Part shown: piece after piece, positions 3,223 to 42,351 of the stretch
How the letters are laid out: each line of letters opens with the position of its first letter
How positions within the stretch are numbered: the first letter of the stretch is position 1
Assembly (NCBI GenBank): GCA_026982475.1
Contig: JALSHB010000172.1
Location: forward strand, 1 to 50,749
Origin: Chromatiales bacterium
GTDB lineage: Bacteria; Pseudomonadota; Gammaproteobacteria; SZUA-152
Reading direction: 5' to 3'
Length of the DNA: 50,749 nucleotides
Notes under the pieces: model-generated
Seen by the model: the letters and a program-made list of their open reading frames with translations, nothing else
What the model was told of the DNA's origin: nothing
Databases searched by the model: none
Program-made: the position numbers and the translations under genes

Positions 3223-3515
3223 CTAGTACTCTTTCAAGGTAATAACACCGCGGATTCAGTTGGTCTGTCAGCGTTCAGGGCAAGGCGCGCCTCGCAGCGA
3301 ATGGCCTTAGTCCTTTGCAAGAGGCGCACCAACAGTAGGCGCTTTAGGCGACACCGCCATGGACGCTGACAGGCCAACCCTTCGGGCGTTCCTGTGGTGT
3401 CCCGCTGCTGCGTTGCAGTGCTTGACAAGGGCCAGGCCATTGCCTGCGCACTGCGCCTTGCCGCGAAACACCACAGGAACGCTGAATCCGTGTTATTACC
3501 TTGAAAGAGCACTAG
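3223..3515. repeat. 293-bp multi-arm palindromic (MITE-like) element
   Basis: The outer 26-bp arms (3223-3248 and 3490-3515) are inverted repeats with one mismatch. They continue for 8 more bp (3252-3259 with 3482-3489) after a 3-nt bulge. Inside are two hairpins: 3259-3274 pairs with 3363-3378 (16 bp, one mismatch) and 3386-3400 pairs with 3468-3482 (15 bp, perfect). Each contains a nested stem (3287-3293 with 3321-3327; 3415-3421 with 3448-3454). The two lobes also resemble each other in inverted orientation (about 3276-3306 and 3433-3461), so the element can be drawn as one long hairpin or as a cloverleaf. No coding content is credible. No clear target duplication is visible. The right arm begins exactly at the stop codon of the ligase gene. 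Confidence 0.85.
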
Positions 3516-4795: not shown

Positions 4796-5635
4796 TCACT
4801 GTTGGGGAGGAGAAAAGAAATAGTCCCCCTCCCGGTACATTCTCTCTGCGGCGGCAACCATGGCCTTGCAATTCACCAACAAGAGCCGGGTATTGCCAAT
4901 CCTGCGCCGGGAAATTTCTCCGCGACGCTCGAGTACCCGGATATATCTTTCCTCGCAGCGCGCTTCCCGCGCCTGGTCGCTGATGACCCGTGTGGGTACT
5001 ACAATCTGCCGGCCTTCCGTATCGATCACCATGCCCGTGTAAATGTCCTCCTCGTATAACGGAACTCCGATACGATCACGTATGCGATCCTCTACAAAGT
5101 GCGTGAACGTAATGGACTCGAACCCGGTATCGATACACAGGATCTTTGCACCACGCTCATACAATTTTTCGAACGGGCTACCCTCTCCAAAAGGGACAAC
5201 GGCGCGTTCATGGCCGGCAACGAACTGATCCGCCAACTCCCCCCAGGCGACGAGGGGATGTGTCGCGCTTAAGCTCCGGACCGAGTCCCTGTTCCTGCGA
5301 AACACCTCGCTCAACAAGCCCATGTGCGAAGGCGTGAAACGCACATTCATGGGTTTTCCACGCATCAGATACTTCTTGGAGGAATCGGTGTAGGCCATGC
5401 TGGGCATGACCAATAGTCCTGTGGGACCCACGACCTCCATGAGGAGACGGCACATGTCGACAGGCCTGCCAAGAAAGCCGTTGTTCTTCCTGTACGAAGA
5501 GTGAACCATCAGGGCATCACCCTTGCCAACCCCCAAGCCTCGGAGCACCGCCAGGAAATCGTCTTCGCCATAGGTCAAAAAACGTGAGACCAGGAATGAC
5601 TCGAGCTTGAGCCTTATGGTTCCTAATCGTGACAT
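4796..5635 (-). CDS. AAC(3)-family N-acetyltransferase
   Basis: 279 aa, close to the usual 260-290 aa of the aminoglycoside 3-N-acetyltransferase superfamily (Antibiotic_NAT). Recognisable blocks are GDALMVHSSYR near residue 40, a TGLLVMPSMAYT strand near 95, RSLSATHPLVAWG near 140 with the conserved His, and a late FTHFVEDRIRDR helix. Family members transfer acetyl from acetyl-CoA to an amine. In a polysaccharide locus the likely substrate is a nucleotide-linked or chain amino sugar rather than an antibiotic; that is inference from context. The ATG at 5635 lies 13 bp inside the end of the toroid gene, indicating translational coupling. A resistance function cannot be excluded but is less likely. 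Confidence 0.88.
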   Translation of the reverse strand: MSRLGTIRLKLESFLVSRFLTYGEDDFLAVLRGLGVGKGDALMVHSSYRKNNGFLGRPVDMCRLLMEVVGPTGLLVMPSMAYTDSSKKYLMRGKPMNVRFTPSHMGLLSEVFRRNRDSVRSLSATHPLVAWGELADQFVAGHERAVVPFGEGSPFEKLYERGAKILCIDTGFESITFTHFVEDRIRDRIGVPLYEEDIYTGMVIDTEGRQIVVPTRVISDQAREARCEERYIRVLERRGEISRRRIGNTRLLLVNCKAMVAAAERMYREGDYFFSPPQQ

Positions 5636-6843
5636 TTCCGCATTTCTTCCTGACCATTCTTCTCTTTTTCCCTGATTCTGTACTCGAGCATGTTCGCGTC
5701 AGCGAAGAACTTCGCGGCCCAATTCAGGTATTCAAAGGACCCATAATCACCATCGACAGGGAACGATCCCTTGATTCCTCCCCGCACATCAGGATCGCCT
5801 GCCACTTTCATCGTCCTCCTGACGAAACGATTCAGGCGAAAAGCGGCTGCACGGTACTCCTGCTTACCCGTCATTTCGTGCAGCAGGAGAAGGCAATGTG
5901 CAATCTGCACGGACCCCGTCAGGCAGACCCATTTCACGGCGGGTCTCCAATCGGCATCCAGTCGGCCGGGAAGATAACCCTCTTCATCGACGATACGGAT
6001 GATGGCCTCCGCCGTCTTCCGGGCAGCTGCCAGGTAGCGTTCATCGCCGGACAACCGGTATGCCTCCAGTACCCCCCGCAAGACATAGCCTATGGTGTGC
6101 GTCAGGGGACGGGACGGTTCATTCAGACAGCAGTCTCCAAACCATCCATTTTCCTTCTGTTTCGTCAGTGCCCAGTCGACATTTCTCAGACCCGCTTCCC
6201 CCCAGCCTTGGTGAGGGTCTAGCCGCGCGGCCTCGAACAGTCCCCACGAAACATGCGTCTCATAGGCCTTCTCACCAGGTTTGGCAAAGGGGGTCGGGTG
6301 TTTCCGCCAGCAGCCATCCTCGTCCAGACTGTCCCGCAACCAGTTGGCCGCCTTGTGCATGGAGGCAGAATAAGGCTCGCCGAAAACACGCACACCCGCC
6401 GCCAGGCCCAGCAATATCTGGCCGGTATTGAAAGTCACTGGAACTACCGGCTTCGAGTCGATTTTCCCCCCCTGAAACCCACCATCGTCGAACTGGATAC
6501 TGACACACCAGTCCAGCATCTTCCTTGCGCCATTCCGGGCCAACTCATCATTCTTCCACTCTGCATACTCCAGTAGCGTCGGAATGATATAGCCGGTTGT
6601 CTCGGGGTAGGAGCTGGCCCACCCATTGATGAGACTGAAGTCACGTGCAACACCTCCGTCTGCCGAGGCGGAGTTTTCCTGGGCACGCAGCAACCAACCG
6701 ATACTCTCGTCAACAGACCTCTCGAGGCCCGGGTCGCCTGTGGGCAGTCCTTCTCCATCCCGTTTCAACTCTGCCCGTGCCGCTTCCGGAAGGGCCACTT
6801 TCTGTCTCATTTCCCTGATCTTGTTTGAGATAATCTTGAACAT
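5623..6843 (-). CDS. Alpha/alpha-toroid (six-hairpin) protein, function unknown
   Basis: About 406 aa. Tandem GTG and ATG codons at 6846/6843 are both possible starts; ATG is used here. The protein shows repeated Gly-rich helix-turn-helix units (for example FDDGGFQGG near 135, DEDGCWRKHP near 190, KENGWFGDCC near 245, DEEGYLPG near 305) typical of six-hairpin glycosidase, epimerase and lyase folds. No signal peptide is seen, so it is probably cytoplasmic. This fold includes unsaturated glucuronyl hydrolases, GlcNAc 2-epimerases and the C5-epimerase catalytic unit; I cannot assign one. Its placement between a sulfotransferase and an N-acetyltransferase suggests action on a sugar precursor or chain. 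It overlaps the next gene by 13 bp. Confidence 0.8.
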   Translation of the reverse strand: MFKIISNKIREMRQKVALPEAARAELKRDGEGLPTGDPGLERSVDESIGWLLRAQENSASADGGVARDFSLINGWASSYPETTGYIIPTLLEYAEWKNDELARNGARKMLDWCVSIQFDDGGFQGGKIDSKPVVPVTFNTGQILLGLAAGVRVFGEPYSASMHKAANWLRDSLDEDGCWRKHPTPFAKPGEKAYETHVSWGLFEAARLDPHQGWGEAGLRNVDWALTKQKENGWFGDCCLNEPSRPLTHTIGYVLRGVLEAYRLSGDERYLAAARKTAEAIIRIVDEEGYLPGRLDADWRPAVKWVCLTGSVQIAHCLLLLHEMTGKQEYRAAAFRLNRFVRRTMKVAGDPDVRGGIKGSFPVDGDYGSFEYLNWAAKFFADANMLEYRIREKEKNGQEEMRKCHD

Positions 6844-6982
6844 CACTATTGCACTCTCACCCTTGAATTTGAGTTCGCAGCCGTCCAGCCCGGCCTTGTC
6901 GTCCAGCTATCCGACGCCTGGACATGAGGAATATCTGCAAGCAGCTAACCACCATCCCCCCAGCAGGGGCACTCGTCATGCA

Positions 6983-7897
6983 TTACCATCGCCTGAACAG
7001 AGTGTACTGAAGGTGCCGGATCTTGGCGGCCAGCGTGACGCGGCCATGAATACCTTCGTAGCCAAAATCATTCAATGTCTCACCGGCAATCTGCTCATAA
7101 ATCATCTGGTCTGACGGCGTCATCTTGCTCTTCCACATCTGAATCTTTGCCGGATCTGGTGGTGAGATCGAACTGGCATGGTACTTGAGACTGTCCGATG
7201 GCATTGACTTGCTGGCTTCCTCGTGATACCTGAGCATCGCGTCATCGTATCGCTCGCCCACAAAGTCACAAATCTCCTCCAAACAGGCCTGTGGACTCCT
7301 GACGAGGTCTTCATAGCGAACCTCCAGATACTGATCCGGTATCATCGCCCCCATCTTGTGGGCCAGGGTAACCTTCCACTGCCAGTCTCGCGCCAGCCGG
7401 GGGATATTCCTGGACCCCCAATCGAGCCCCATGAGCGAACTGGCCACATCCCTTCCGTCGCGAACGATGTGAATGATCCGACAATCCGGAAACAGTTCAT
7501 GGATGACATCGAGATCGGTGACATAGGCAGGGTCCTTGTCACCCCATCGGGTTTTTCCGTGACTGGCGGCGTAAACCGTATAGATGGAACGGATAAGCTC
7601 AGGATAGGTATCCGGTGAAAAGGCGAGAATCTTTTCCTTGTCGACAATCAAGCCTCCCCTTGCGACGAAACTATCCTCCGCGATGTCATCCAGCAAGCGC
7701 CGCAGATTTTTTCTGTCCCGTAAATCACCATATTCGTCGATACGCCTGGCGGTATCGACGATAAAGTTCGATTCGAAGGGGATGGCGATATTGGGATGCG
7801 CATTGAGCATGAGACGGAGAAGGGTGGTTCCCGAACGCTGCGAACCGACGACAAATATTGGGTCACCCATGAGATTTCCTGCTGCCAATTCACTCAT
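6983..7897 (-). CDS. PAPS-dependent sulfotransferase family protein
   Basis: 304 aa from ATG at 7897; a second in-frame ATG lies at 7903. The downstream ATG is favoured because GAAGG sits about 7 bp before it but abuts the first. The 5'-phosphosulfate-binding loop GSQRSGTTLLR appears within the first 30 residues and the 3'-phosphate-binding segment IIHIVRDGRDVASS near residue 140. A later YLEVRYEDLVRSP block is also typical. The enzyme should move sulfate from PAPS to a hydroxyl or amino group, here most likely on the cluster's polysaccharide or a lipid-linked precursor. It is flanked by the heparinase-like gene upstream and the toroid gene downstream, both separated by just over 100 bp. Confidence 0.92.
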   Translation of the reverse strand: MSELAAGNLMGDPIFVVGSQRSGTTLLRLMLNAHPNIAIPFESNFIVDTARRIDEYGDLRDRKNLRRLLDDIAEDSFVARGGLIVDKEKILAFSPDTYPELIRSIYTVYAASHGKTRWGDKDPAYVTDLDVIHELFPDCRIIHIVRDGRDVASSLMGLDWGSRNIPRLARDWQWKVTLAHKMGAMIPDQYLEVRYEDLVRSPQACLEEICDFVGERYDDAMLRYHEEASKSMPSDSLKYHASSISPPDPAKIQMWKSKMTPSDQMIYEQIAGETLNDFGYEGIHGRVTLAAKIRHLQYTLFRRW

Positions 7898-8016
7898 CTT
7901 CATACCTTCGCTTCAGAATTCCAAACAGGGCACGGCTGTACCCGCAACTTATCCAGTGCGTCCGAAATATCGGGTCAGGGGTCATCCCCGCCCCGGAACG
8001 CGCAAATACCGCCAGA

Positions 8017-10215
8017 TCAGCAGACACTGCGAATCACCCGGTCAACCCCCTGCATGGCCAGTGCCGACTCGATGACACCACCTCTGAGTCTCGTCCATAG
8101 CATGGAGGCAAATATCCCCTCCCCCGGATGACCGCCGATTTTCCTGTCATCCCCAGACTCCGAGATGACCAATCGATCCTCGTATTCGGGGAAGGAAATC
8201 GATATGTGATACAAGCCATCCTCCCGGCTCTCTGTGCAGCGAAGGGGGGGGCTCGCCTGGGATGCGAATTGCCCAGCGATTACCGAGGTCGCCTGTGGAT
8301 CGAGAATTCGCAGGCAGATCTGTGGCGCCGCCTCCAACCGACCATAGGAGTCAGACACCCATCCGCCCAGCGGATCCAGGCTACCGGTCCGGATATCCTG
8401 CAGTGAAAGGTTTCTTCCCAGCCAGAGACGGGTGCGGGTACAGCCGTTGTCAATCGTCAGACCATTTTCCTCTCGAAACACCTCGCAACCTTCCGCGCAT
8501 TGAAATCTCAGCTCCGCACTCGTTTCGCCCCTCGCCTGGACAGGGAGCAGATCGTATATCAGCCAGTAATCGTCAGCGATCACGATGATACCCCTGCGGG
8601 CACCGTTATAGACATTGCCCGTCTGGAGTTCCGACTCCATCCAGGTTGCCGCGCCGGATTGCAAAACTCTCGTACGGCCATGTGCAGTGCATCGTGCATT
8701 TCGAAAATCCCTGTTCAACGTCCCCAAGGGGTCTTCGGCATCCAGCATCAGGCCATTGTGGGCCTCTGGCGAGGCAAGATAGGCCCTCCAGTTTATCCCA
8801 TGATCCCGGACACCGTATCGGTAGGAATGCGTGCCGCTGTCAACCCAGACAGGCTCATTGTCAGCCGTTAGGTAGACGGCATGGAGATCCGCATGGGCAT
8901 GCCCTGCATGCGAGGGCAGCCCTGCCCGCGGGGCCGTACGAAAAACGAGGCGATCTCCCGTTGCAGGCGTCTCCCAGACAATGATTCCGCCATCGGGAAA
9001 GCTGTGAATGACGGGGGTATCCCGCGCCACGCCCTCCTCTTCTGGAGGACAAAGCCCACCATCCAATAGCCAGTAGGCACTCTCCACCGAGAAATCCCAG
9101 CGTGGAGCAACCGGAACCCCCGCGTCGTACAGCCCCCGGTAAATCTCGCGCAAGCCCCCCGGACTCCGGCCCGGTTCGCCGCAGAATGGGAACATGGAGT
9201 CTTCGGTGGCATTTCCTAGCGAAATAGGCTTGCCGGTCTCACCAGCCAGAACGGTCTGGAAGCGGAGCATCTTTTCCAGGCGCGTGGAATCCTCCTGCCG
9301 AAGGGTCTCGCCGGCCTTTTTCTTCAACAGAACGTAGATCGCCGACACCTCGGAAGCGATCTCATGGTAGTGGCTGGATGCCTCGAAACCGCTGCCATCG
9401 TCATAGACCTGGCGTTCCCATTCGCGCAGCCAGGGGGCTTCAAACTCCCCCCACACATCCACATCAACCAGGTCGGGAAGGACAAATTCCACGAACCAGC
9501 CACCAAAATAGTCGATCAGGAGGTGATTGTTGGCAACGGCGTCGCCAAGACGCCCGTGCAGAAAGGCAATGTCGGCAACCAGGATCTTCAGCAGGTTCAA
9601 CTGAAGGGCATCCGGTTGTCCCCTGTCCAGCATCAGGATCCGCAGGCACCAGCAGACTACCAGCAAGCGCTGAATGACAAGCATGTTGCTGAAATAGGCC
9701 CCCGAATCATCTTCCCTGGCGTTGACCATCCACTGCTCGATGAACTGGTTTATCCGGGGAGCATCGTGACCACCGATGGTGCCAAAGACCCATGCGGGAA
9801 GAAAGGCGAAGCGGTGGGGGCGGAGGCGATAGAGAACGTCCTGACGGCGCTCACCCAGGGCATGCAGCGCACGGAAAAAGTCATCATCGACAGGTATCTT
9901 CTCGTCATAGACCGTGATGAAACCCAAGCGATCACCGTCAGGCGCAGGCTCGGGCCGCGGCCACCGGTTCCCACTGGAAGAAATCTCGGGGTAACGTCGT
10001 ACGGTATCCTCGCTGACAAGGGTGCAAAACCGGTCGCTGGCGGCGAGCTTGCGCCAGAGTCGGACAAACTCCTCACCACGCCCCTCTCCGGGGTCGCGCA
10101 AGAGACATGTATTGAGGCTTTCGAAGTCTGGCCGGTATCGCCTCTCGCTGTGACGCGAAAGCGTGAGCAACGAAATCGGCGCGGCGAAAAGACGCTTGGT
10201 AAATTCCTTGATCAT
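8017..10215 (-). CDS. Heparinase II/III-family polysaccharide lyase
   Basis: 732 aa from ATG at 10215, preceded by GAGG about 11 bp upstream; the open frame continues to 10335 without a better start. The N-terminal half is a helical (alpha/alpha-barrel) region with YDDGSGFEASSHYHEIASEV near residue 290, the Tyr-His block of this family. The C-terminal half holds the heparinase II/III beta-sheet domain with HAGHAHADLHAVYL and WVDSGTHSYRYG near 440-475. Such proteins cleave uronic-acid-containing chains by beta-elimination, and members are common in exosortase A loci. It may edit or release the polymer this locus makes. No clear Sec signal is visible, so its location is uncertain. Confidence 0.9.
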   Translation of the reverse strand: MIKEFTKRLFAAPISLLTLSRHSERRYRPDFESLNTCLLRDPGEGRGEEFVRLWRKLAASDRFCTLVSEDTVRRYPEISSSGNRWPRPEPAPDGDRLGFITVYDEKIPVDDDFFRALHALGERRQDVLYRLRPHRFAFLPAWVFGTIGGHDAPRINQFIEQWMVNAREDDSGAYFSNMLVIQRLLVVCWCLRILMLDRGQPDALQLNLLKILVADIAFLHGRLGDAVANNHLLIDYFGGWFVEFVLPDLVDVDVWGEFEAPWLREWERQVYDDGSGFEASSHYHEIASEVSAIYVLLKKKAGETLRQEDSTRLEKMLRFQTVLAGETGKPISLGNATEDSMFPFCGEPGRSPGGLREIYRGLYDAGVPVAPRWDFSVESAYWLLDGGLCPPEEEGVARDTPVIHSFPDGGIIVWETPATGDRLVFRTAPRAGLPSHAGHAHADLHAVYLTADNEPVWVDSGTHSYRYGVRDHGINWRAYLASPEAHNGLMLDAEDPLGTLNRDFRNARCTAHGRTRVLQSGAATWMESELQTGNVYNGARRGIIVIADDYWLIYDLLPVQARGETSAELRFQCAEGCEVFREENGLTIDNGCTRTRLWLGRNLSLQDIRTGSLDPLGGWVSDSYGRLEAAPQICLRILDPQATSVIAGQFASQASPPLRCTESREDGLYHISISFPEYEDRLVISESGDDRKIGGHPGEGIFASMLWTRLRGGVIESALAMQGVDRVIRSVC

Positions 10216-10539
10216 CAAACACGAAACCTCGCTACCATCCAAACGGAAGACTGGTGCACTGCGGATTGATACATAAAGCAGTACCCGGAAAGCCTGCATG
10301 CGCGAGAACAGCCAACCTCTGCTCACTTGACTCACTTGGCGCGATGTACTGGCGCACTGCCCCGACTGGACACGCAGCTTCCGCCCAAAACGGTTATTTT
10401 CTCACCTCCATTCACCAGACACAAAAAAATAATCTTGCAAATGCTCGCCGCCCTTGATTCCCCGGCACACCCACCGGCTCGCCCCTGAAACCAGGAGATG
10501 GGAAAGTATGACGAAGCCTTTGATTTATTCATCGCTTCG
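10216..10539. other. Intergenic region upstream of the lyase operon
   Basis: This 324-bp stretch lies between the start of the heparinase-like gene and the left edge of the IS remnant. It should contain the promoter for the minus-strand 10215-to-303 gene set, but I could not find a convincing -35/-10 pair or a correctly spaced sigma-54 site. An A-tract around 10424-10430 is the only conspicuous feature. The open frame of the lyase continues into it to 10335 without a credible start. Confidence 0.4.
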
Positions 10540-11392
10540 TCCATAGAGTTGCCCCGTTTTCGTGGACATCTGAGTATCTTGCAAAAGGAGGGGCCTGGAA
10601 ATGGACAAAACGAGAAAACCATATCCGCCGGAGTTTCGGCAACAGATAGTGAAGCTGGTACGGGCAGGCCGGCCCCCGGAGTCACTAGCCCGGAAGTTCG
10701 AGCCGACGGCTGAGAGCATCTGCAACTGGGTAAAGCAGGCAGACCGAGACGAGGGTCGTCGTGATGACGGCCTGAAGAGCCCGGAGCGTGAGAAGCTCTG
10801 CGTCTGCGGCGCGAGAACCGCCAGTTGAAGATCGGGCGGGAAACCAACTCGGTGCCACCGGAGTCTTCGAGTTCGTAAAGGTGAATCGGGCCGATTGCCC
10901 GGTTGCTACGATGTGCCGGCTGCTCGGTGTCTCCACGAGCGGGTACTATGCGCGGCTGAACCGTCCTGAGTCGGCCAGAACGTGGGGATACTGCTCTGGC
11001 TGGCAAGATTGAGGCAATCCACTCCCGTTCTCGTGGGATCTATGGTGCCCCTCGCATCCCTGCCGAGCTGCGTGCTGAGGGCGAGCAGGTCGGTCGCAAG
11101 CGGGTAGCGCGGCTGATGAGGGCAAAGGGTCTGGTGGGTGCCAACCTCCGCAAGGGTTGCCGCACGACATCTCGCGACGAGGCAGCCCGGCCGGCGCCGG
11201 ACCTGGTGGAGCGGGGGTATACCGCCGAGGCCCCGAACCGGCTGTGGGTGGCGGATATCACCTATGTGCCGACTTGGGAGGGGTTCCTATGCCTGGCTGT
11301 AGTGCTGGACGTGTTCAGTCGACGTACCGTGGGCTGGGACATGGCTGCGCACCTACGGACCGAACTAGTGCTTTCCGCGCTCAACATGACAC
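10540..11392 (+). pseudogene. Degraded IS3-family insertion sequence
   Basis: An orfA-like frame starts at 10601 behind AAAGGAGG (MDKTRKPYPPEFRQQIVKLV) and carries the helix-turn-helix segment typical of IS3 OrfA. It loses frame near 10795, and the leucine-zipper region is shortened by an internal deletion. OrfB-like sequence resumes at about 10840 (CRLLGVSTSGYY), shifts frame again near 10985, then runs through IEAIHSRSRGIYGAPRI to WVADITYVPTWEGFLCL and VVLDVFSRRTVGW. The first two Asp residues of the DDE triad are present. The match stops after LVLSALNM at about 11392, so the third acidic residue and the right end are gone. The left end is placed near 10540 by resemblance to IS3-family termini. 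It cannot transpose on its own. Confidence 0.85.
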
Positions 11393-12003
11393 TTCCGCAT
11401 CATCGGCATTCGCCACTGGACTGTCTATCGCTGATCAACATCGAACGACAGCATGCCCGGTACAGGGGCGAGCTTCATACCCCAAATGTTGAACCGTCCA
11501 CAGAAGTGGGGTAGCCCCAGTACCAGGCCGCCCACCCAAATTGGATACCAAACAGATGAGATGGCAGACAAACCACCTCCGGCACCCTGGGTGGCCAGTA
11601 GGTTCAACAGCAACTCGGCATCACTGCCCCTCCCGCCGGCGCCGCCGCAGATGGTTGGCCCGAGCCAGGCGCAGGCCCAACTTCAATTGCCGACACAGCC
11701 GGCCCAGCAACACCCAGGCCCCGGAACCGGTCAATTTCACGTCCGTGGAATCGATCTCGACGATAGGCGGTGTAGGCTGTACTCTCTTTATCGACGCACC
11801 CGCGATGTGAGGGTTTGGTTATCCGGTATTTTGCCGTATCTCCTCACAGCGTGCGCTTCTCCATTTCCTCTAGCCGGGCTTATCCTGGAACATGGCCATG
11901 TTGCGTTCATATTTATAACTACTTTATAGTTGTATGAAGTAGTGCTTTTCTAGCCGAAGGAGACATCCAGCAAGACTTTGGGCTAAAACAAAAGACCTGC
12001 AAA
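11393..12003. other. Non-coding debris downstream of the IS remnant
   Basis: These 611 bp contain no gene I can support. The open frames are short or Pro/Gln-rich with no recognisable motif. A reverse-strand stretch around 11625-11790 reads PIVEIDSTDVKLTGSGAW and could be a transposase or other gene remnant, but I cannot assign it. From about 11930 the base composition becomes visibly AT-richer and leads into the glycosyltransferase gene, marking a composition boundary. Confidence 0.5.
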
Positions 12004-13269
12004 GTGAGACATCTTCTTTTCCTACCCTCAAACAAACCCTCTGAAATGAACAATAATCTACCACAAATTTTCGCCTTAGCACCGATCAACTGGCATTTCC
12101 CATGGTGGACCGACAGACAGCACCTTTTATCAAGACTGGCTGCGAGAGGATGGCCAATAGTCTTTAGCAGTGGCCCACTAAGCCTTTGGGAAAGGGAAAG
12201 CCATGAATGGATGCACAGTAGTATATTTGGCAGAGCTGAGAGATTTGAGACAGGTGATAACAGACCACCACTGTTGATTGATCACCCAGGGAAGGTTCTT
12301 CCACTCTGGCCGAAGTTCCCTAAATGGGATCAGGTAGTCCGGCGCCGGCATGCCAGGCGACTGCAACTCATAGCCGGCAACAATAACGAAGCGGGCCGCA
12401 TCGCCTTCATCTGCTATCCATCGTTCCTTCCTTACGTGGATCTTCTTGATGCTCGATGGGTCGTATTGCACATCAATGATGCGTGGAATACATTCAGCGA
12501 CTGGAATGATGAGTTGAGCAATAATTTCTCAAAACTTGCGGAACGGGCTGATCTTATCACATGTATTGCAGGAAGTATGGCGCGTTCCTTGACTGTGGAC
12601 GGCCTTGAGAAAGTCAAGATCATTCATCATGGCGTAGATGCAGATGCTATAATCGCAGGACATGCGGCTCCGTGCCCCACTGACATCAAGGATATACCAC
12701 ATCCCCGTATAGGCTACCTTGGTCGAATTACACAAAAGGTTGATCTTGGCCTGGTGCATAAAATTGCCTCACAGCATCCTGATTGGCATTGGGTAATGAT
12801 TGGTACCATTGCAGGTATTCGAGATGCAAGTCCATCTGGACAAGATTTGAGAAAATGCCTATCACTCCCTAACATACATTTCATTGGACGCAAGGATCAG
12901 ATCGACCTACCCGCCTATTTGTGCCATATGGATGTAAACACCTTATGTTACAAGGTTGATGAAACTGGATTCTGGACATCAGGGTTTCCCCTCAAACTTT
13001 TTGAATACCTTGCTTCAGGCAAACCAGTCATTGGGAGTGACATCGAAAACATAAAGCCATATGCAGATGTCATTGACATTGCCAAAACACCCGAGGCATG
13101 GATTGAATCAATCAAACATGCGTTAATGTATGGAGGAGTCGGCACACCAGAACGGCGAAAGCAAGTCGCGTATGAAAATACCTGGGAAAAACGAACAGAT
13201 GACATGGAGCACCACCTCATGGACATGATAAAAACATGCGCGAACCACACTGGATCAGCTGCCAAATGA
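12004..13269 (+). CDS. Glycosyltransferase (GT4/TuaH-like), AT-richer than its neighbours
   Basis: 421 aa from GTG at 12004; an ATG at 12046 is an alternative, and neither has a strong ribosome site. The N-terminal Rossmann half includes WVVLHINDAWNTF and a RADLITCIAGSMARSL block near 190. The C-terminal half shows HPRIGYLGRITQKVDLGLV near 240, GTIAG and, near 330, GFPLKLFEYLASGKPVIGSD, the donor-binding region of GT-B family 4 enzymes. It should add one sugar to a lipid-linked chain at the cytoplasmic face. It lies on the opposite strand from most genes here, follows an IS remnant, and is clearly AT-richer than the surrounding genes, suggesting acquisition together with the flippase. Confidence 0.85.
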   Translation: MRHLLFLPSNKPSEMNNNLPQIFALAPINWHFPWWTDRQHLLSRLAARGWPIVFSSGPLSLWERESHEWMHSSIFGRAERFETGDNRPPLLIDHPGKVLPLWPKFPKWDQVVRRRHARRLQLIAGNNNEAGRIAFICYPSFLPYVDLLDARWVVLHINDAWNTFSDWNDELSNNFSKLAERADLITCIAGSMARSLTVDGLEKVKIIHHGVDADAIIAGHAAPCPTDIKDIPHPRIGYLGRITQKVDLGLVHKIASQHPDWHWVMIGTIAGIRDASPSGQDLRKCLSLPNIHFIGRKDQIDLPAYLCHMDVNTLCYKVDETGFWTSGFPLKLFEYLASGKPVIGSDIENIKPYADVIDIAKTPEAWIESIKHALMYGGVGTPERRKQVAYENTWEKRTDDMEHHLMDMIKTCANHTGSAAK

Positions 13270-13551
13270 CGGCATAGTCCCCAATGCACTGGTCGCCGTC
13301 CAGCCCAGTCACAATGAGCAACTCCCCACGGAAAAACAGCGTAACGAGGTGTAGACCACCATATACGCCGAACAACTGAAGCTTGCGCTGGCACAGAGCC
13401 ATCCTGCCAGCATCTCCGATCCAGCCCTATCGAAGACGGTCATGAGGCGGATACAAAGGCAGCCAATACGCCCCTATCCCTAGCATTGTTGAACCACCAT
13501 TCCACGCACGCACCCCAAAGCATGTGACATTCACTCATTAACCTAACTTCA
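13270..13551. other. Spacer with possible transposase remnant
   Basis: 282 bp between the glycosyltransferase and flippase genes. The plus strand, in line with the glycosyltransferase frame but broken by stops, reads phrases such as YAEQLKLALAQ that resemble the N-terminal part of IS66-type transposases. This is a weak impression from composition only. I see no promoter or terminator that I would defend. Confidence 0.3.
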
Positions 13552-15042
13552 ATGGCAGCTCCGAACGAAAGGATCAATAAGAAGAATATCGCTGGACACA
13601 TGCTCAGGGGTACCTTCTGGAATGTCCTCATGCGCTGGAGCATCCGCGCCATCGGCCTGATCAATGTCGTCATACTCGCCCGGCTGCTGACGCCGGACGA
13701 TTTCGGTATCGTGGCCATGGGCATCATAACCATGGCATTGCTCGAATCCTTCGCCAATCTCAATGTCACCTCCCTCATCATCCGCGAGAAAAACCTCGAC
13801 AGGGCGACCATCGATACCGCCTGGAGCATGCAGTTCCTGCAAAACCTGGCACTCGCGTTCATCCTCGCGGCCTCTGCCCCTCTGATTGCCACCTACTTCG
13901 GCGATCCACGCGTCACCGACATCATCCTGGTACTCGCCATTGCCACTAGCATCCGTGGCCTGACCAACATCGGCATGACCCTGGTCAGACGCGAGCTCGA
14001 CTATGCCAAGGACTTCCGCTTCGAGGTCTACAAGAAACTCTCCATATTCAGCATCACTCTTGCCCTGGCGCTCAGCCTGCAAAGTTACTGGGCTATTGTG
14101 ATCGGACAACTGGCCGGTGCCGTCATCGAAGTCATCCTCAGCTTTCTCATGCACTCCTACCGGCCTCGGCCACAGCTAAAGAATTGCAGACGTTTCTTAA
14201 ACTTCGGTCTCATCATGAGTCTGACCAACACACTCCAATACCTGAACCAGCGATTCGACAGCTGGGTCGTCGCAGGCATCAGTAACGCAGCCACCTTCGG
14301 CCTCTACAACATCGCCCTGGAACTGTCCCGGATGATCATCAACGAGATAACCACCCCGGTGAATCGGGCCCTGTATCCTGCCTACGCCAAGATATCCCAC
14401 GACCGGGAGGGCCTGGCGGAGATCTACCTGAACACCCTGGGCATCATCATCACCCTGTACTTTGCCCTTGGCATCGGATTGCACATGGTCGCCGACGAGA
14501 TGGTCCGCGTCATCCTGGGCGAGAAGTGGCTCGATGCCATCCCGATCATCGAATGGCTGGCGCTGCTCGCCCTCTTCGAAGGCATCTTCCAGATGCTGGC
14601 AGGCAATGTCGTGAATGTTATTCACAAGGAGAAGGCAGGGCTCTACCTGCACATCGGCAGATTCATCATGATCGCGCCTGCAATCATCGTTGCCAGCCTC
14701 TTTGGTGACATCATCACCATAGCCATGACGGCGGCCCTGGCAACAGCGGCCTATATCCCCATCACCATCGGTGTCGCCGCAAGGCTGTTCGGCGTAGGCT
14801 CCTGGCGCATTACAATTCTTTTCTGGCGGCCTGTGCTGGCGGGCATGGTCATGGGCCTCAGTATCGAGGCGCTGCATGTCTCCACCCGGCTGCCCATTCT
14901 GGGGTTAGTGTTGGACATCCTCGTCGGCGCGCTCACCTACACGTCCGCGTTGCTGGCGCTCTGGTTCCTCGCAGGGCGACCGGACGGAGCCGAAAGGCAG
15001 GTACTCGACAAGTTCAGAAAAAAACTGCATCCCCGCGCATGA
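13552..15042 (+). CDS. Wzx/WzxC-type polysaccharide flippase
   Basis: 496 aa with about 12-14 membrane helices and the length expected for MOP-superfamily oligosaccharide exporters. The N-terminus contains GTFWNVLMRWSIRAIGLINV followed by LARLLTPDDFGIVAMG, the family's first-helix signature. It should flip undecaprenyl-diphosphate-linked repeat units to the periplasm. No other flippase is seen in the window, so this gene is probably essential to the pathway although it sits in the inverted, foreign-looking segment. It ends 11 bp before the stop of the convergent CapK-like gene. Its composition is closer to the rest of the locus than that of the preceding glycosyltransferase. Confidence 0.92.
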   Translation: MAAPNERINKKNIAGHMLRGTFWNVLMRWSIRAIGLINVVILARLLTPDDFGIVAMGIITMALLESFANLNVTSLIIREKNLDRATIDTAWSMQFLQNLALAFILAASAPLIATYFGDPRVTDIILVLAIATSIRGLTNIGMTLVRRELDYAKDFRFEVYKKLSIFSITLALALSLQSYWAIVIGQLAGAVIEVILSFLMHSYRPRPQLKNCRRFLNFGLIMSLTNTLQYLNQRFDSWVVAGISNAATFGLYNIALELSRMIINEITTPVNRALYPAYAKISHDREGLAEIYLNTLGIIITLYFALGIGLHMVADEMVRVILGEKWLDAIPIIEWLALLALFEGIFQMLAGNVVNVIHKEKAGLYLHIGRFIMIAPAIIVASLFGDIITIAMTAALATAAYIPITIGVAARLFGVGSWRITILFWRPVLAGMVMGLSIEALHVSTRLPILGLVLDILVGALTYTSALLALWFLAGRPDGAERQVLDKFRKKLHPRA

Positions 15043-15053
15043 GCCGGTTTCTG

Positions 15054-16406
15054 TCAGACGGACACCAGACTCTTTACATAGCGATACTTGCCGGAGCCTT
15101 CGGGGTTGATCCTGTCGACGAACTCCAGCTTGACCTCCGTGTCCTCACCAAGCCTTGCCCTCATGCCGTGAATAATTTCCTCCTCGGTCCGCGAGGTAAA
15201 CTCGGCGTTGCGAACGATGAGAATCCTGAGAACGCCAACCGACTCCTGAACGATCTGAAATGAATCGATCCCGGCGAGATCCCGCAAGACATAGATCAGC
15301 GCCAGGCCGTGCATGACCGTACCGTCTTCGCGCACGATGAAATCCGTCGTCCTGCCCTGTATCTCGCGCAGGAGTGGAAGTCCCCTTCCACAGCGGCAGG
15401 GTTCGTCATCGAGAACGGCCACATCGCCCGTCCGGTAGCGGATGAAGGGAAAGTCACTGGTCGCCATGTGGGTGACGACGACCTCGCCCGCCTGTCCCGT
15501 CTCGACTGGGCTTCCATCGGCATCGACAATCTCCACGACGATATCCTCGGCGGTGATGTGCATGCCGCCTTCGGGGCACTGGTGGGCGATGAAACCAGCA
15601 TCGCGTCCGCCATAACCGTTGGCGACCGGGCAGGCGAAGACCCGTTCGATGCGTTCGCGCTGGTCGTCGTAGAGCTTTTCCGAGGTGACGAAGGCCACAC
15701 GGATGCCGAGATCCGTCATGTCGATGCCCGATCCTTCGGCATGGCCGGCAATCATCGCAATGGACGAGGGATAGCCGAACAGCATGCGTGGCCGGATGCG
15801 GCGGATCTCATCGACGAAGTTGCCGAGATTTTCTTTCGACATCTCGAATGCGGGAAGCAGATGGGTGCGCAGCAGCTTGTCCCGAATCAGCCGTATCCGA
15901 TCCTGCGAGCCCAGCTCGATGGGCGAGCCCCAGACCACGATCTCCGGGTCACCGATATCGACACCCCACCAGCGCGTGGCCCGCCACTTGGCCGCCACGT
16001 CGTGACTGACCCGTTCCTTTCCGAGATAAAAGATGAGTGGCTCGCCACTGGACCCGCCCGTGTTGAATCGTGACAGGGGGGCATGGCCTTCGGCCTTTAG
16101 TCGTTCCGTGTTTTCGCGTATCAGCCCCTTGCTCAGACAGGGCAATCTGGCCAGTTCGTCGATACTGTTCATGTCTTTCGGGGAGAAACCTGCCTGCTCG
16201 AACAGGTCACGATAGTACGGCACCCTTTCACCGGCCTGCTGCAGGAAGGTGCGTAGACGCCGCAGCTGATACGCCTGCATTTCCTGTGGCGAATACCACT
16301 GGGTACGTTCCATCTCCTTTCGCACGGCAACGCTTGCGTGCCCCTTCAGGCGCTCGTGCAGGGGAAACAGCAAACCGCTGACCAGCCGGGTATAGATACC
16401 GCTCAT
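15054..16406 (-). CDS. CapK-like adenylate-forming enzyme (phenylacetate-CoA ligase family)
   Basis: 450 aa from ATG at 16406. The frame is open further upstream, but that portion is the shadow of the preceding sulfotransferase; the ATG overlaps that gene's TGA as ATGA. The adenylation motif FNTGGSSGEPLIFY near residue 115 and the C-terminal GEVVVTHMATSDFPFIRYRT block near 325 (residues listed in part) are typical of PaaK/CapK proteins. A Cys-containing DEPCRCGRGLP segment may bind metal. In capsule loci this family is thought to activate a carboxylate as acyl-adenylate or thioester for attachment to the polysaccharide; the substrate is unknown. Overlap with the sulfotransferase suggests the two act in one modification step. 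Confidence 0.88.
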   Translation of the reverse strand: MSGIYTRLVSGLLFPLHERLKGHASVAVRKEMERTQWYSPQEMQAYQLRRLRTFLQQAGERVPYYRDLFEQAGFSPKDMNSIDELARLPCLSKGLIRENTERLKAEGHAPLSRFNTGGSSGEPLIFYLGKERVSHDVAAKWRATRWWGVDIGDPEIVVWGSPIELGSQDRIRLIRDKLLRTHLLPAFEMSKENLGNFVDEIRRIRPRMLFGYPSSIAMIAGHAEGSGIDMTDLGIRVAFVTSEKLYDDQRERIERVFACPVANGYGGRDAGFIAHQCPEGGMHITAEDIVVEIVDADGSPVETGQAGEVVVTHMATSDFPFIRYRTGDVAVLDDEPCRCGRGLPLLREIQGRTTDFIVREDGTVMHGLALIYVLRDLAGIDSFQIVQESVGVLRILIVRNAEFTSRTEEEIIHGMRARLGEDTEVKLEFVDRINPEGSGKYRYVKSLVSV

Positions 16407-17239
16407 GACGTCGAAACCGTTTCCTTCATACGCTGATGAAACCGTTCCGCCAGGCCTTCGCACAAGGCGGCCACGTCTGGCTCGATCTCGGGGGGGGGCC
16501 GCTTGCGGATGGAGCGTGGCGAAACCCAGCGCGATATGCCCTGGCTGTAGCGAATCCCGACAAATTGGAAAACCCGCTCGATTTCCTCGCCGGGCTGGGT
16601 GACCAGCGTTTCGTAGGAGACCAGTCTCAGCCGCGGGTCTGTGTCCAGCGCCTGCTCGAAGAACAGGATGTTCCGGTAATACCACTTGAGCGCCGCGGCC
16701 GTGGCCTCGTTGATATCCGGATGGGTGTACTTGCGGATCAGCGCATGGGTTTCGTCCGACATGCCCTCGCCTCGCCAGCCACAGGCATGGCGATCCTTGG
16801 CGATCAACTGGATTCGTTCCGCGAACCCCGGGAAAGAGATCATCAGGGAATTTACCGTATCCCGATAGTCTCGAACCACCCACAATGCCTTGGCAGGGGC
16901 AAACTCATCCAGCAGGGAACGCAGATGCTGGGACTCCAGCAGGGCCTTGATGACAAACACCTCGCCACCGGATCGCTCGATGAGTCCGTGAATATGCTGG
17001 CGGTCGCGCATGTGATAATCGTCGAAGGCGCGGGGATCTCTCTCGTGATAGGTGTCCGTCTGCATACTGCGCTCGAAGAGATCCATCACCAGGTTGGTTC
17101 CGGATCGTTGCATGCCGGCAACGAGCACCTGCCCCCGCGGCTTCAGGCCCCGCACGCGCCGGGCCGTGGAGAGCAGGCTTTTCCTTGCCAGGATACCCAG
17201 CCTGTCGATTTTTTCGTGGTAGTACGAAAGAGATTCCAT
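16403..17239 (-). CDS. Second sulfotransferase family protein
   Basis: 278 aa from ATG at 17239, preceded by AAAGGAA; the longer open frame upstream lacks family similarity. The PAPS loop VLVAGMQRSGTNLVMDLF sits near residue 40 and the second phosphate-binding region ALWVVRDYRDTVNS near 110, in the same order as in the first sulfotransferase (6983-7897). Overall similarity to that protein looks low, so the two probably differ in substrate. The stop overlaps the CapK-like start (ATGA). About 125 bp separate it from the upstream glycosyltransferase. Likely role: sulfation of a sugar hydroxyl or amine, or of a glycolipid. Confidence 0.88.
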   Translation of the reverse strand: MESLSYYHEKIDRLGILARKSLLSTARRVRGLKPRGQVLVAGMQRSGTNLVMDLFERSMQTDTYHERDPRAFDDYHMRDRQHIHGLIERSGGEVFVIKALLESQHLRSLLDEFAPAKALWVVRDYRDTVNSLMISFPGFAERIQLIAKDRHACGWRGEGMSDETHALIRKYTHPDINEATAAALKWYYRNILFFEQALDTDPRLRLVSYETLVTQPGEEIERVFQFVGIRYSQGISRWVSPRSIRKRPPPEIEPDVAALCEGLAERFHQRMKETVSTS

Positions 17240-17364: not shown

Positions 17365-18606
17365 TCACCCCTGTTTCCCCAGGGAACAAAAACAACGCAC
17401 CAGCACCTCGACCCGGCCATCCCAGGTGTTCCTCTTCGCATGCGCAAGGATTTCGTCGCCATCCCAGTCCCGCGACAGCGCGGTGGCCAGCGCCGAGCAG
17501 AGGGCAGCCTGGTCGCCGAAGGGAACGATGATCCCCAGGCTGTCGCGGCACACGACCTCGCGGTTGCCGCCCACATCGGTGGTCACGATGGGCAGGCCGC
17601 AGGCCATGGCCTCCAGCAGCACATTCGCCCAGCCCTCGTTGCGGGTGGCGAGCACGAACAGATCCGCGGCGGAGAGCACATGCCGCAGTCGTTCCGGGGC
17701 GATGGCGCCGAGGAAGTGGACCCGTTCCTCGAGCCCCAGGTCCTTCACCTGCTGACGCAGGCGCCCGCTCATGTCACCTTCGCCGGAGGCGCCGCCCACC
17801 ACGAGATAGTGCACGTCGCCCAGCCTTCCCTTCAAGTCGGGCAGACAGTCGATGACGCGGTGGAAGCCCTTGCGCTCCACCAGTCCGCCGACGGTGACCA
17901 ACACCCGTGCCTGCTCGGGAAGCCCCAGGGCCTCGCGGCAGGCCCGCCGGTCCTCCGGGAAGAATTTCTCGATATCCACGCCATTGCCGACCACGCGCAC
18001 CTTTCCGGCCGGCACTCCCAGGGCGACGACGTGCCGCTTCAGGGCATCGGCCACGGAAAAGATCTGCGTGGCATCGGCCAGGGCGCGCAGCATGAGGTGG
18101 CGGCGGTTGCTGCGGGCGAGCGGCACCTCGGTGCCCCGCAGGGTAATGGTTACCGGACGCTTCAGCCAACGGCCGAGGCGGGTGGCGGCATAGCCGTCGG
18201 GATAGGCGAAGTGGGCGTCGATAAGGTCCACACCGAAGTCCCGGCACAGGCGGCGCACGGTGGGCAGGCTGCCCAGCGCCATCATCAGGCCATCCAGCCG
18301 GCGGCCGATGCCGGGGAAGGAAAAGAAGCGCGGGCAGTAGACATCGATGCCGTCCTGCACCACATGATAGGGCGACACGGGCCGGTAGCCCGGGCGGAAG
18401 CGCCGGATCAGCCCCTGCAGCGGAAACCAGGGCTGCGGCGAGACCACCACCAGCGGCAGATGGCGGGCCACGCGAAACATGCGCTCGCGGATGAACAGGC
18501 CGGCGCGGGGCTGGCCGGGGCGGGGAAACAGGCTGCTGAACACCAGCACATGCGGGGCATCCGGCTTCGGGCCACCCTCCTCTGCGCGCTTGCCGGGCAC
18601 CGCCAT
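17365..18606 (-). CDS. Glycosyltransferase family 4
   Basis: 413 aa from ATG at 18606, 18 bp after the preceding gene's stop; the frame runs on upstream only as a shadow of that gene. The N-terminal domain opens with HVLVFSSLFPRPGQPRAGLF and contains DLIDAHFAYPDGYAA near 125. The C-terminal donor domain has VRVVGNGVDIEKFFPED near 195 and RNEGWANVLLEAMACGLPIV near 320, the GT4 EX7E region. It should transfer a sugar from a nucleotide donor to the growing lipid-linked chain. Similar enzymes occur near TIGR04063 glycosyltransferases in exosortase A loci. The specific sugar cannot be read from sequence. Confidence 0.92.
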   Translation of the reverse strand: MAVPGKRAEEGGPKPDAPHVLVFSSLFPRPGQPRAGLFIRERMFRVARHLPLVVVSPQPWFPLQGLIRRFRPGYRPVSPYHVVQDGIDVYCPRFFSFPGIGRRLDGLMMALGSLPTVRRLCRDFGVDLIDAHFAYPDGYAATRLGRWLKRPVTITLRGTEVPLARSNRRHLMLRALADATQIFSVADALKRHVVALGVPAGKVRVVGNGVDIEKFFPEDRRACREALGLPEQARVLVTVGGLVERKGFHRVIDCLPDLKGRLGDVHYLVVGGASGEGDMSGRLRQQVKDLGLEERVHFLGAIAPERLRHVLSAADLFVLATRNEGWANVLLEAMACGLPIVTTDVGGNREVVCRDSLGIIVPFGDQAALCSALATALSRDWDGDEILAHAKRNTWDGRVEVLVRCFCSLGKQG

Positions 18607-18623: not shown

Positions 18624-19838
18624 TCACCGGCCCAGCAGCGATTCGTAGATGGGGATATAGCGCGACACGCTGCGCTGCCAGTTGCGTTCCTCCTCCACGA
18701 AACGGCGGCCGGCCTGCCGGCGCGCCGGCCAGGATGCCCGGTCTTCGACCAAGCGGGCCACGGTATCGCAGAGGGCTCCGGCGTCGCCGGCGCGAAACAG
18801 ATCGCCGGTCTCGCCATGCCGGATCAGCTCCTTGTGGCCGCCGACGTCCGAGGCCACCACCAGCTTGCCCTGGGCCATGGCCTCCAGCGGCTTGAGGGGG
18901 GTGACCAGGTCGGTCAGGCGCATGGGCAGGCGGGGATAGACGAAGACGTCCACCAGGCTGTAGTAGGCCTGCACCTCGTCGTGCGGCACGCGGCCGGTGA
19001 AGGTCACGCGGTCTTCCAGACCGAGCTGGCGGACCTGTCCCCGCAGGGTGTCGTCCTGCGGGCCGCCGCCCACCAGCAGCAGATGCACCTCGGGGATGCG
19101 CCCGCCCAGGCAGGCCATGGCCTCGATGAGCAAGGGCAGCCCCTCGTAGGCATAGAAGGAGCCGATGAAGCCGAGCACCACCCGGCCATCCAGACCGAGC
19201 CGCGTGACCAGGGCCTGGTCGCGCGGGCGGTCGAAGGTGAACTTTTCGATGTCCACGGCATTGGGGATCACCGTGATCTTGTCCTCGCCGATGCCGCGCG
19301 CCGCCATGTCCGAGCGCAGGCCCTCGCAGATGGTGGTGACGTAGTCGGCCTCGCGCAGCACCGAGCTCTCCAGTGCCCGGGTGAGGCGGTAGCGCAACCC
19401 GCCCTCGCGGCTGGTGCCGTGATCCACCGCGGCGTCCTCCCAGAAGGCGCGCACCTCGTAGACCAGGGGAATGCCCCGCCGCCTGGCCACGCGCGCGGCG
19501 GCCTTGCCGTTCAGGGCCGGCGAATGGGCGTGGATGATGTCCGGGGAAACGCTGTCCACGGCCTGTTCGAGGCGTCCTTCGAGGGCACCGATGACGGCCC
19601 ACTGGTTCAGCACCGGCAGGCCCGCCAGCAGGCCGCCGGCCGGCTCGGTGCGGAAGAAGTGCAGGTCGTCGATCAGCTCCTCGTCCGCCTTCGGCTGGAT
19701 GGCGTCGTTGTGCTTGGGGCTGGTGACGTGGTCGGTCTCCCAGCCGAGGGCACGCTGCTCGCGCAGGATGGCCTGCGAGCGGAAGGTATAGCCGCTGTGC
19801 AGGGGGATGGAGTGGTCGAAGACGTGGAGTATGCGCAT
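18624..19838 (-). CDS. XrtA-system glycosyltransferase (TIGR04063 type)
   Basis: 404 aa from ATG at 19838, giving the family's diagnostic start MRILHVFDHSIPLHSGYTFR; the open frame continues 14 codons upstream without support. Other landmarks are IIHAHSPALNGKAAARVARR near 100, VYEVRAFWEDAAVDHGT near 125 and VIPNAVDIEKF near 205, followed by the GT4 donor-binding region (PLKPLEAMAQGKLVVASDVG). This family is found almost only with exosortase A. The gene begins 10 bp after the amidotransferase stop and ends 18 bp before the next glycosyltransferase, so the three form a tight transcription unit. Confidence 0.95.
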   Translation of the reverse strand: MRILHVFDHSIPLHSGYTFRSQAILREQRALGWETDHVTSPKHNDAIQPKADEELIDDLHFFRTEPAGGLLAGLPVLNQWAVIGALEGRLEQAVDSVSPDIIHAHSPALNGKAAARVARRRGIPLVYEVRAFWEDAAVDHGTSREGGLRYRLTRALESSVLREADYVTTICEGLRSDMAARGIGEDKITVIPNAVDIEKFTFDRPRDQALVTRLGLDGRVVLGFIGSFYAYEGLPLLIEAMACLGGRIPEVHLLLVGGGPQDDTLRGQVRQLGLEDRVTFTGRVPHDEVQAYYSLVDVFVYPRLPMRLTDLVTPLKPLEAMAQGKLVVASDVGGHKELIRHGETGDLFRAGDAGALCDTVARLVEDRASWPARRQAGRRFVEEERNWQRSVSRYIPIYESLLGR

Positions 19839-19848
19839 GTCGGAAAAC

Positions 19849-21744: not shown

Positions 21745-21746
21745 CG

Positions 21747-25715: not shown

Positions 25716-25723
25716 GGTGACGC

Positions 25724-27609: not shown

Positions 27610-27628
27610 AGGCGATTTTCCCGGCGGC

Positions 27629-28762: not shown

Positions 28763-28805
28763 GGTGTTTCCTGTTGCAAGGGTGTTTCGTGTTCGGTGGC
28801 GCTGC

Positions 28806-30242: not shown

Positions 30243-30251
30243 CGGTGACAA

Positions 30252-31124: not shown

Positions 31125-31160
31125 CGTCGTGTCTTCCCCTGATCGGCGCGTAGCAATGGC

Positions 31161-32738: not shown

Positions 32739-32802
32739 GGATGTTCCGCTCTCATCAAGGTAGGACCGGACAGCATTCCGTCCGTGGCCGGCTCGGGCCG
32801 GA

Positions 32803-38086: not shown

Positions 38087-38137
38087 CAGACGTTCCCCAG
38101 ATCCTTCTTTTCTGCGTGGCTTTCTTTCGGCGGTTTC

Positions 38138-40986: not shown

Positions 40987-42351
<1,365 letters not shown>

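Follow-up and report, generated by a model that had tools for sequence, protein, structure and literature searches.

Two predicted sulfotransferases in an exosortase A polysaccharide locus of a Chromatiales bacterium, one of them part of a conserved gene module

Known systems and the layout of the locus

The canonical exosortase A (XrtA)/PEP-CTERM locus (Haft et al. 2006, PMC1569441) encodes exosortase A, PrsK, PrsR, PrsT, an EpsB-type transferase and the glycosyltransferases (GTs) stp1-3, together with an amidotransferase, a FemAB protein, a deacetylase, chain-length and export proteins and the TIGR03097 ligase. The locus described here differs by two added sulfotransferases, a word that was not found in that paper. 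Among the papers searched, none joins PEP-CTERM or exosortase with polysaccharide sulfotransferases; the exopolymer cluster of Gallionella ES-2 (Galf_1266-1292, PMC3770913) contains one sulfotransferase, mentioned in passing, and its authors drew no link to the exosortase system.

Two sulfotransferases of different subfamilies are likewise present in the Wzx/Wzy-type xss cluster for synechan of Synechocystis 6803 (PMC8205485). That cluster is, however, cyanobacterial, and the term 'exosortase' is absent from the main text of the paper. Its product has been shown chemically to be sulfated. The same paper states that sulfotransferase genes of this kind had not been known from other polysaccharide clusters of bacteria. 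Gammaproteobacterial clusters with sulfotransferases have been described for the sulfated capsules of Vibrio sp. KMM 8419 and Cobetia marina KMM 1449 (PMC11641403, PMC11766843). They contain the genes for PAPS supply, as does the XrtA locus of another genome in our comparison (G139). PMC11641403 sees in such a combination of PAPS genes and sulfotransferases within a polysaccharide cluster a hallmark of the synthesis of sulfated polysaccharides. The two clusters make ABC-transporter capsules with solved structures and are not of the XrtA/Wzx kind.

The window, that is, the whole 50,749-nucleotide stretch analysed, contains an XrtA/PEP-CTERM exopolysaccharide locus with exosortase A and associated families above their cut-offs (TIGR03109, 03108, 03097, 03087, 03088, 04063, 03019, 03006, 03007, 03018 and 02916; Table 1). 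The Pfam matches, invariant residues and TIGR models bear out the sequence-only reading of two sulfotransferases with intact PAPS-binding loops, named ST1 and ST2 here, in an exosortase locus, and show this to be a complete XrtA polysaccharide locus.

Table 1. Features of the window (positions in nucleotides)
Feature	Position	Strand	Basis or remark
MBOAT partner gene, SGNH/AlgJ-like by position only	303..1565	(-)	no Pfam match; homologs occur in loci also holding MBOAT homologs
MBOAT O-acyltransferase (glycan O-acylation)	1573..3159	(-)	PF03062 E 3e-36
XrtA-system ligase/polymerase-like protein (TIGR03097, Wzy_C)	3512..4750	(-)	519.8 bits, cut-off 188
AAC(3)-like N-acetyltransferase fold protein	4796..5635	(-)	PF02522 E 3e-45; every AAC(3) equivalog far below cut-off
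Alpha/alpha-toroid protein, recurrent beside TIGR03097 ligase	5623..6846	(-)	weak Pfam matches; homologs in other loci
ST1, Sulfotransfer_3 family sulfotransferase	6983..7897	(-)	PF13469; second in-frame ATG at 7903
Heparinase II/III-family polysaccharide lyase	8017..10236	(-)	PF07940, PF16889; start uncertain, ORF open to 10335
TuaH-like GT4 glycosyltransferase	12004..13269	(+)	low GC3 (0.44)
Wzx-type flippase	13552..15042	(+)	PF13440 E 6e-69
PaaK/CapK-like adenylate-forming ligase, ST2 downstream partner	15054..16406	(-)	PF00501; PaaK-type NCBIfam below cut-off; conserved neighbour
ST2, sulfotransferase of the glycosyltransferase-ST2-ligase module	16403..17239	(-)	PF00685/PF13469, AlphaFold model, conserved gene order; ATG 17239
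GT4 glycosyltransferase (TuaC-like), ST2 upstream partner	17365..18549	(-)	PF00534/PF13692, conserved neighbour; start inferred from domain onset
XrtA core: GTs stp3/stp2/stp1, amidotransferase, exosortase A (22916-24688), FemAB, deacetylase	18624..33420	(-)	TIGR models above cut-off
XrtA core, rest: UDP-GlcNAc 2-epimerase, outer-membrane protein, Tyr kinase, chain-length protein, export protein (by Pfam; the others by TIGR models above cut-off)	18624..33420	(-)	
Two TPR (PrsT-like) proteins, sigma-54 response regulator (PrsR-like), PrsK, EpsB-type sugar transferase	35306..46110	(-)	
UDP-Glc 6-dehydrogenase, TviB-type UDP-GlcNAc 6-dehydrogenase, UDP-hexuronate/hexose 4-epimerase-like protein	46121..49990	(+)	TviB-type enzyme exceeds curated cut-off; 4-epimerase-like protein without equivalog above cut-off

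The two sulfotransferases and the conserved surroundings of ST2

By their domains and PAPS-loop residues, ST1 and ST2 are members of the PAPS-dependent sulfotransferase superfamily, and transferase activity is predicted for both. ST1 matches PF13469 (E 6e-40, 138 bits, above the Pfam cut-off) and PF00685 (E 3e-13), with the 5' loop GSQRSGTTLL and the 3' motif RDGRDVASS; R21, S22, G23, T24, T25, R146 and S154 are invariant in an alignment of seven homologs. Its nearest relatives in the PDB by sequence are the CurM/olefin synthase sulfotransferases and TPSTs. ST2 matches PF00685 (E 4e-11, 43 bits) and PF13469 (E 1e-10, 42.7 bits), both above the Pfam cut-off, and contains the PAPS-binding loop GMQRSGTN and the 3' motif RDYRDTVNS, with Q44, R45, S46, G47, T48, R123 and S131 invariant across 37 aligned homologs. 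Because a sequence search of the PDB with ST2 returned zero matches, its fold was predicted. The AlphaFold model is confident (pLDDT 95.6), and the PDB matches listed for it in a fold search are exclusively sulfotransferases. CurM/olefin-synthase and tyrosylprotein sulfotransferases, which act on polyketides or on tyrosines of peptides, are among the nearest (12-18% identity).

A GT4 glycosyltransferase, ST2 and a PaaK-like ligase form a conserved module in which ST2 is a fixed part, and ST2 co-diverges with the core genes. The exact order glycosyltransferase-ST2-PaaK-like ligase seen in the window recurs in 49 of the 64 other loci found with ST2. XrtA-locus genes are present in 53 of these 64 loci, and sulfotransferases are therefore not foreign to XrtA loci. 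The distance matrix of ST2 correlates with those of the adjacent GT (r 0.957), GTstp3 (0.944), the amidotransferase (0.925) and the ligase (0.877), with 0 of 499 permutations reaching these values in Mantel tests and a core-to-core control of r 0.973. Genera in which the module was seen include Thiobacillus, Aromatoleum, Methyloversatilis and Thiohalobacter; in the culturable Thiobacillus thioparus DSM 505, ST2 is part of an XrtA locus (L159).

ST1 was probably added to the locus later. Homologs occur in other XrtA loci; among the 24 genomes of the family that were searched, an ST1-type gene was found in the source genome only and in none of its 23 relatives. The gene is low in GC, and an IS remnant lies nearby.

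Among the 150 PF13469 matches listed for 60 gammaproteobacteria bearing an XrtA ligase, 26 lie <10 kb from this ligase, against 0.96 expected, an enrichment that applies to these listed matches; the Poisson and Fisher values used here treat genomes as independent and are indicative only. A sulfotransferase-like gene is located within ~10 kb of the ligase in 25 of the 59 other ligase-bearing genomes. Such genes had been considered not to be a standard part of XrtA clusters, which holds in that they are not core genes but overlooks their recurrence. For this XrtA locus, sulfation is a plausible role, now backed by the comparative evidence of conserved order, co-divergence and enrichment.

Supply of PAPS

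No PAPS synthesis genes were found in the source assembly, and an assembly gap at the expected site is the likeliest reason. An APS kinase was detected neither in this assembly (100% complete by marker estimate) nor in the window; a match above the Pfam cut-off on contig C34 was FtsY and was rejected. PF01507 has a single match in the assembly, a CysH carrying the cysteine motifs of APS reductases, and a search for CysD gave none; sulfate assimilation here therefore needs no PAPS. In three congeners (G003, G005 and G006), apsK sits between ahcY and metF. In the source assembly, contig C160 breaks off ~200 bp inside ahcY and no metF was detected; a gap at this place is therefore likely, and after this synteny check we rejected the view of the strain as PAPS-negative.

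Inactivity of both sulfotransferases for want of PAPS would agree with the missing kinase, with three of the six congener assemblies, all 74-90% complete, likewise showing none, and with the PAPS-independent sulfate assimilation. Nevertheless, we consider it improbable, because the apsK site of the three congeners coincides with a contig break and because neither ORF is disrupted and the PAPS residues of both are invariant. No APS kinase was seen in G389, a 2.5-Mb MAG with the ST2 most similar to that of the window (78%), but 44 of the 49 ST2 genomes have one. All 25 XrtA genomes whose ligase has a sulfotransferase-like gene close by contain the kinase, as do 27/34 of the others (Fisher P 0.016; the genomes are not phylogenetically independent). 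While no APS kinase was found in the window beside its sulfotransferases, the XrtA locus of G139 includes one, together with a 45% ST1 homolog; in another locus (L131), the kinase is located 113 bp from ST2.

The likely target of sulfation

The best explanation, to which we assign a probability of roughly two in three, is that ST1 and ST2 are PAPS-dependent cytoplasmic enzymes that sulfate the XrtA glycan while it is lipid-linked, or else a decoration on it. The GT4 enzyme would add a sugar onto the lipid-linked repeat unit, and ST2 would sulfate this sugar or a group activated by the PaaK-like ligase. Wzx would then flip the sulfated unit, the TIGR03097 protein would polymerise or transfer it, and it would be exported, presumably as a free, secreted polymer and not as a glycan bound to protein. 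ST1, probably gained later along with the part of the locus that holds the lyase, may add a second sulfation, and PAPS would be supplied by a housekeeping APS kinase whose gene most likely fell into the assembly gap. The gene association would, however, also fit sulfation of a small acyl group or of a glycan on a protein.

If ST2 and the PaaK-like ligase acted on a small aryl or acyl group, the sulfate would be on a substituent and not on a sugar. The pairing of ST2 with a PaaK/FlxY-like ligase in 50 of the 64 loci, the overlap of the ligase ATG with the ST2 stop codon (ATGA) in the window, and the tyrosylprotein and SULT-type sulfotransferases among the nearest folds of ST2 would fit this idea. 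However, the ligase is found in many XrtA loci without ST2, no ligase was detected with the ST2 of Salinisphaera or of L131, and heparan 3-O-sulfotransferases are also among the PDB matches, which makes a sulfated substituent an unlikely product. Unlikely, too, is a sulfated glycan joined to PEP-CTERM proteins instead of a free polysaccharide. TIGR03097 is named a putative O-glycosylation ligase and is strongly matched here, and a Methylobacillus epsH mutant still produced its polysaccharide (PMC1569441); yet this family name is hypothetical, and the chain-length and export proteins favour a polymer.

The sequence-only reading had likened the locus to a route to a sulfated polymer resembling a glycosaminoglycan (GAG); this would be a uronic acid/hexosamine polymer with O- or N-sulfation, trimmed by the heparinase-family lyase. 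The lyase is indeed present (PF07940 E 6e-20; 72 bits, cut-off 24), but its family is not GAG-specific, does not indicate the substrate and spans lyases of several polymers. A weak alignment (E 0.35) to heparinase III (5JMD) covers its candidate catalytic Asn (NNH) and Tyr (HYH), and a His-rich segment (HAGHAHADLH) was read from the sequence alone. The three uronic acid precursor genes exist as well, with predicted UDP-GlcA-, UDP-GlcNAcA-type and epimerase functions, but at 46121-49990 they lie beyond the 6983-17239 region given for the two sulfotransferases and 29-43 kb away from ST1 and ST2. The XrtA deacetylase (TIGR03006) would also suit a GAG, as would the best fold match of the 5623-6846 protein, a heparin-specific unsaturated glucuronyl hydrolase. 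This match (model pLDDT 72.5) is unspecific, however, since GH88, AGE-epimerase and GH76 folds match alike, and XrtA loci in which no lyase homolog was detected have the protein too. Its assignment as a glucuronyl C5-epimerase was rejected because Pfam C5-epim_C reached E 0.01, below cut-off, and because of the same unspecific fold search. No GAG polymerase (KfiA/KfiC, PmHS or HAS-like) was among the Pfam/NCBIfam matches of the window's proteins, and several GT4s, the Wzx flippase and the Wzy_C protein point to a heteropolysaccharide repeat. A lyase homolog was undetected near ST2 in the 64 loci and in the other XrtA loci compared; a G139 candidate (L118:3603-6044) had no Pfam match and was not used. 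A GAG-like polymer is thus quite unlikely, and nothing shows a resemblance to animal heparin.

Among bacteria, sulfated polysaccharides were termed exclusive to cyanobacteria in 2021 (PMC8205485), and a few marine capsules have been added since. In granular sludge, sulfated polymers were measured throughout, yet very few producers were identified by means of reference sulfotransferases (PMC10483923). The co-inherited GT-sulfotransferase-PaaK-like-ligase module may represent a widespread branch of XrtA loci, so far unrecognised, by which Beta- and Gammaproteobacteria make sulfated biofilm glycans, possibly including part of the sulfated glycoconjugates of unknown producers in granular and activated sludge, a proposal that we regard as evenly balanced. 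Many bacteria that degrade sulfur compounds, methanol or aromatics have the conserved ST2 gene set in the same cluster and therefore probably produce sulfated sugars in their biofilms. Cultured genera with a sulfotransferase as a fixed part of this common floc- and biofilm-type locus provide named genes and strains for identifying the makers of sulfated polymers, and the module is a candidate genetic source of sulfated polysaccharides beyond animals and algae.

Composition of the locus

The contig analysed here belongs to a draft assembly of 3.0 Mb in 224 contigs, and family-model searches of the window proteins revealed a full XrtA (exosortase A) exopolysaccharide locus. Exosortase A, three stp glycosyltransferases (GTs), an amidotransferase, FemAB, a deacetylase, a chain-length protein, a tyrosine kinase, an outer-membrane protein, PrsK and the TIGR03097 ligase (a ligase/polymerase-like protein) each exceeded the curated cut-off; an EpsB-type transferase is a further member, as are PrsR-like and PrsT-like proteins. 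The two sulfotransferases that the sequence-only reading had placed in this locus, ST1 and ST2, are real and intact. An MBOAT acyltransferase and its partner lie at the locus end, and the pair is again found near it in L143 and in Thiobacillus genomes (L139, L153); the XrtA glycan of the window is probably O-acylated as well. The AAC(3)-fold protein within the polysaccharide locus scores far under all resistance-gene cut-offs; it likely acetylates amino sugars rather than conferring resistance.

Features of the window discussed in the text
Feature	Position	Strand	Remark
MBOAT acyltransferase and partner	303-3159		
TIGR03097 ligase	3512-4750	-	
AAC(3)-fold acetyltransferase	4796-5635		
Toroid protein	5623-6846	-	alpha/alpha-toroid
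ST1	6983-7897	-	
Lyase	8017-10236	-	heparinase II/III family
IS remnant	10332-11930		between lyase and TuaH-like GT
Integrase-core (rve) fragment	11116-11514	+	flanked by more transposase-like sequence
ST2	16403-17239	-	
Uronate genes	46121-49990		third gene without equivalog assignment

ST1 is a Sulfotransfer_3 protein whose closest solved relatives are the CurM and olefin-synthase sulfotransferases and TPSTs. It was detected at E 1e-30 in none of the 23 other genomes of the family, and its best match among 369 genomes of the class (45% identity, G139) likewise lies in an XrtA locus. From the named relatives in it, this class corresponds to the Gammaproteobacteria of GTDB. GC3 is 0.58-0.69 in the ST1 segment (303-10236) versus 0.78-0.91 in the core (18624-28894), and the segment adjoins the IS remnant with its integrase-core fragment. 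ST1, the toroid gene and the genes for the lyase and the acyltransferase were probably gained together at a later stage. A 224-aa ORF on the opposite strand of the IS remnant was rejected as spurious.

Polymer type and PAPS supply

The proposal that the polymer is glycosaminoglycan (GAG)-like found no support. Uronate donors are possible given the uronate genes, but these are distant: their near end is separated from ST2 by ~29 kb and from ST1 by ~38 kb (far end, ~42 kb). More than one uronate polymer falls within the range of the lyase family, searches of the other ST2/XrtA loci examined found no homolog of the lyase, and no GAG polymerase was seen in the window. The toroid protein, which no family model fits well, is repeatedly encoded near the gene of the TIGR03097 ligase in other XrtA loci (L055, L068, L070, L071, L081, L085, L097, L098, L139-L166). 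A heparin-specific unsaturated glucuronyl hydrolase heads its fold matches, with isomerases and mannanases scoring nearly equally, and the substrate therefore cannot be read from this match.

PAPS synthesis had been named as a check on sulfation, and APS kinase was not found in the assembly. The lone marginal match (L003; contig C34, 6005-6148) is FtsY, which reaches the Pfam gathering cut-off of APS_kinase; lone marginal matches there can misguide pathway calls. The APS kinase gene sits between ahcY and metF in three congeners (G003, G005, G006), contig C160 of the source assembly stops ~200 bp inside ahcY, and a search of this assembly did not find metF, a gene that is normally present. We infer that an assembly gap at ahcY-metF is the simplest explanation for the absent gene. 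Judged from its genes, sulfate assimilation looks APS-reductase based: the source genome has a single CysH, bearing ECCRIRK and CAPC motifs, and CysD was not found in it. PAPS would then be required for sulfation only. In other genomes the connection is a direct one: G139 has APS kinase within its XrtA locus (L118:6674-7294), and in L131 the gene and ST2 are 113 bp apart. Of the XrtA genomes, the 25 with a sulfotransferase-like gene nearby all possess APS kinase, versus 27 of the 34 others; of the ST2 genomes, 44 of 49 possess it.

Sulfotransferases of other XrtA loci

Among 60 gammaproteobacterial genomes carrying the TIGR03097 ligase, 26 of the 150 PF13469 matches listed lie within 10 kb of this gene (expectation, 0.96), and at least 20 genomes contribute to these among the matches listed. 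When the Pfam matches were supplemented with those of profiles derived from relatives of ST1 and ST2, a sulfotransferase-like gene was found near the ligase in 25 of the 59 other genomes. The earlier statement that XrtA clusters do not include sulfotransferases as a standard part is therefore true of the core only. Sulfotransferases have been reported from the cluster for synechan (PMC8205485) and from those for two marine capsules (PMC11641403, PMC11766843), and a paper on a Gallionella exopolymer cluster mentions one in passing (PMC3770913); in literature outside subscription journals, we found no paper joining them to exosortase or PEP-CTERM loci. The XrtA-ligase neighbourhood of G358 (L119:2116-14000) encodes a divergent APS-kinase-like protein (PF01583, E 1e-29), a PF13469 sulfotransferase and, by eye, a protein resembling PEP-synthase/pyruvate-phosphate-dikinase, and may represent a second sulfation or phosphorylation route.

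ST2 diverges more than ST1, and sequence search detected no PDB relative. Its predicted structure (pLDDT 95.6) matched sulfotransferases only among the PDB matches listed, including TPST and heparan 3-O-sulfotransferases, and its PAPS-binding residues show no variation across 37 relatives. When 84,980 species genomes were scanned, 64 loci were recovered (63 clear ST2 matches and one remote), 53 of which contain XrtA-locus genes within the fetched flanks. ST2 relatives in Salinisphaera (L170, L163, L169) lie outside an XrtA core; the polysaccharide locus that holds them is of another kind and includes an epimerase and Wzx.

A single-strand arrangement of a TuaC-like GT4, ST2 and a PaaK-like ligase is found in 49 of the 64 loci, and the order in the window is identical, with the ST2 stop and ligase start overlapping as ATGA. 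Cultured carriers include Thiobacillus thioparus, T. denitrificans, Aromatoleum diolicum, Methyloversatilis thermotolerans, Thiohalobacter thiocyanaticus and Seongchinamella sediminis. ST2 distances correlate with distances of the adjacent GT at a Mantel r of 0.957 and with those of the core amidotransferase at 0.925, values near that of the core-to-core control (0.973). The conserved gene order, matching distances and ATGA overlap thus indicate that ST2 is an old, co-inherited part of one XrtA locus type. The original observation is confirmed and its interpretation partly supported; the stronger finding, which lies outside that claim, is that of a conserved module in XrtA loci that contains a sulfotransferase.
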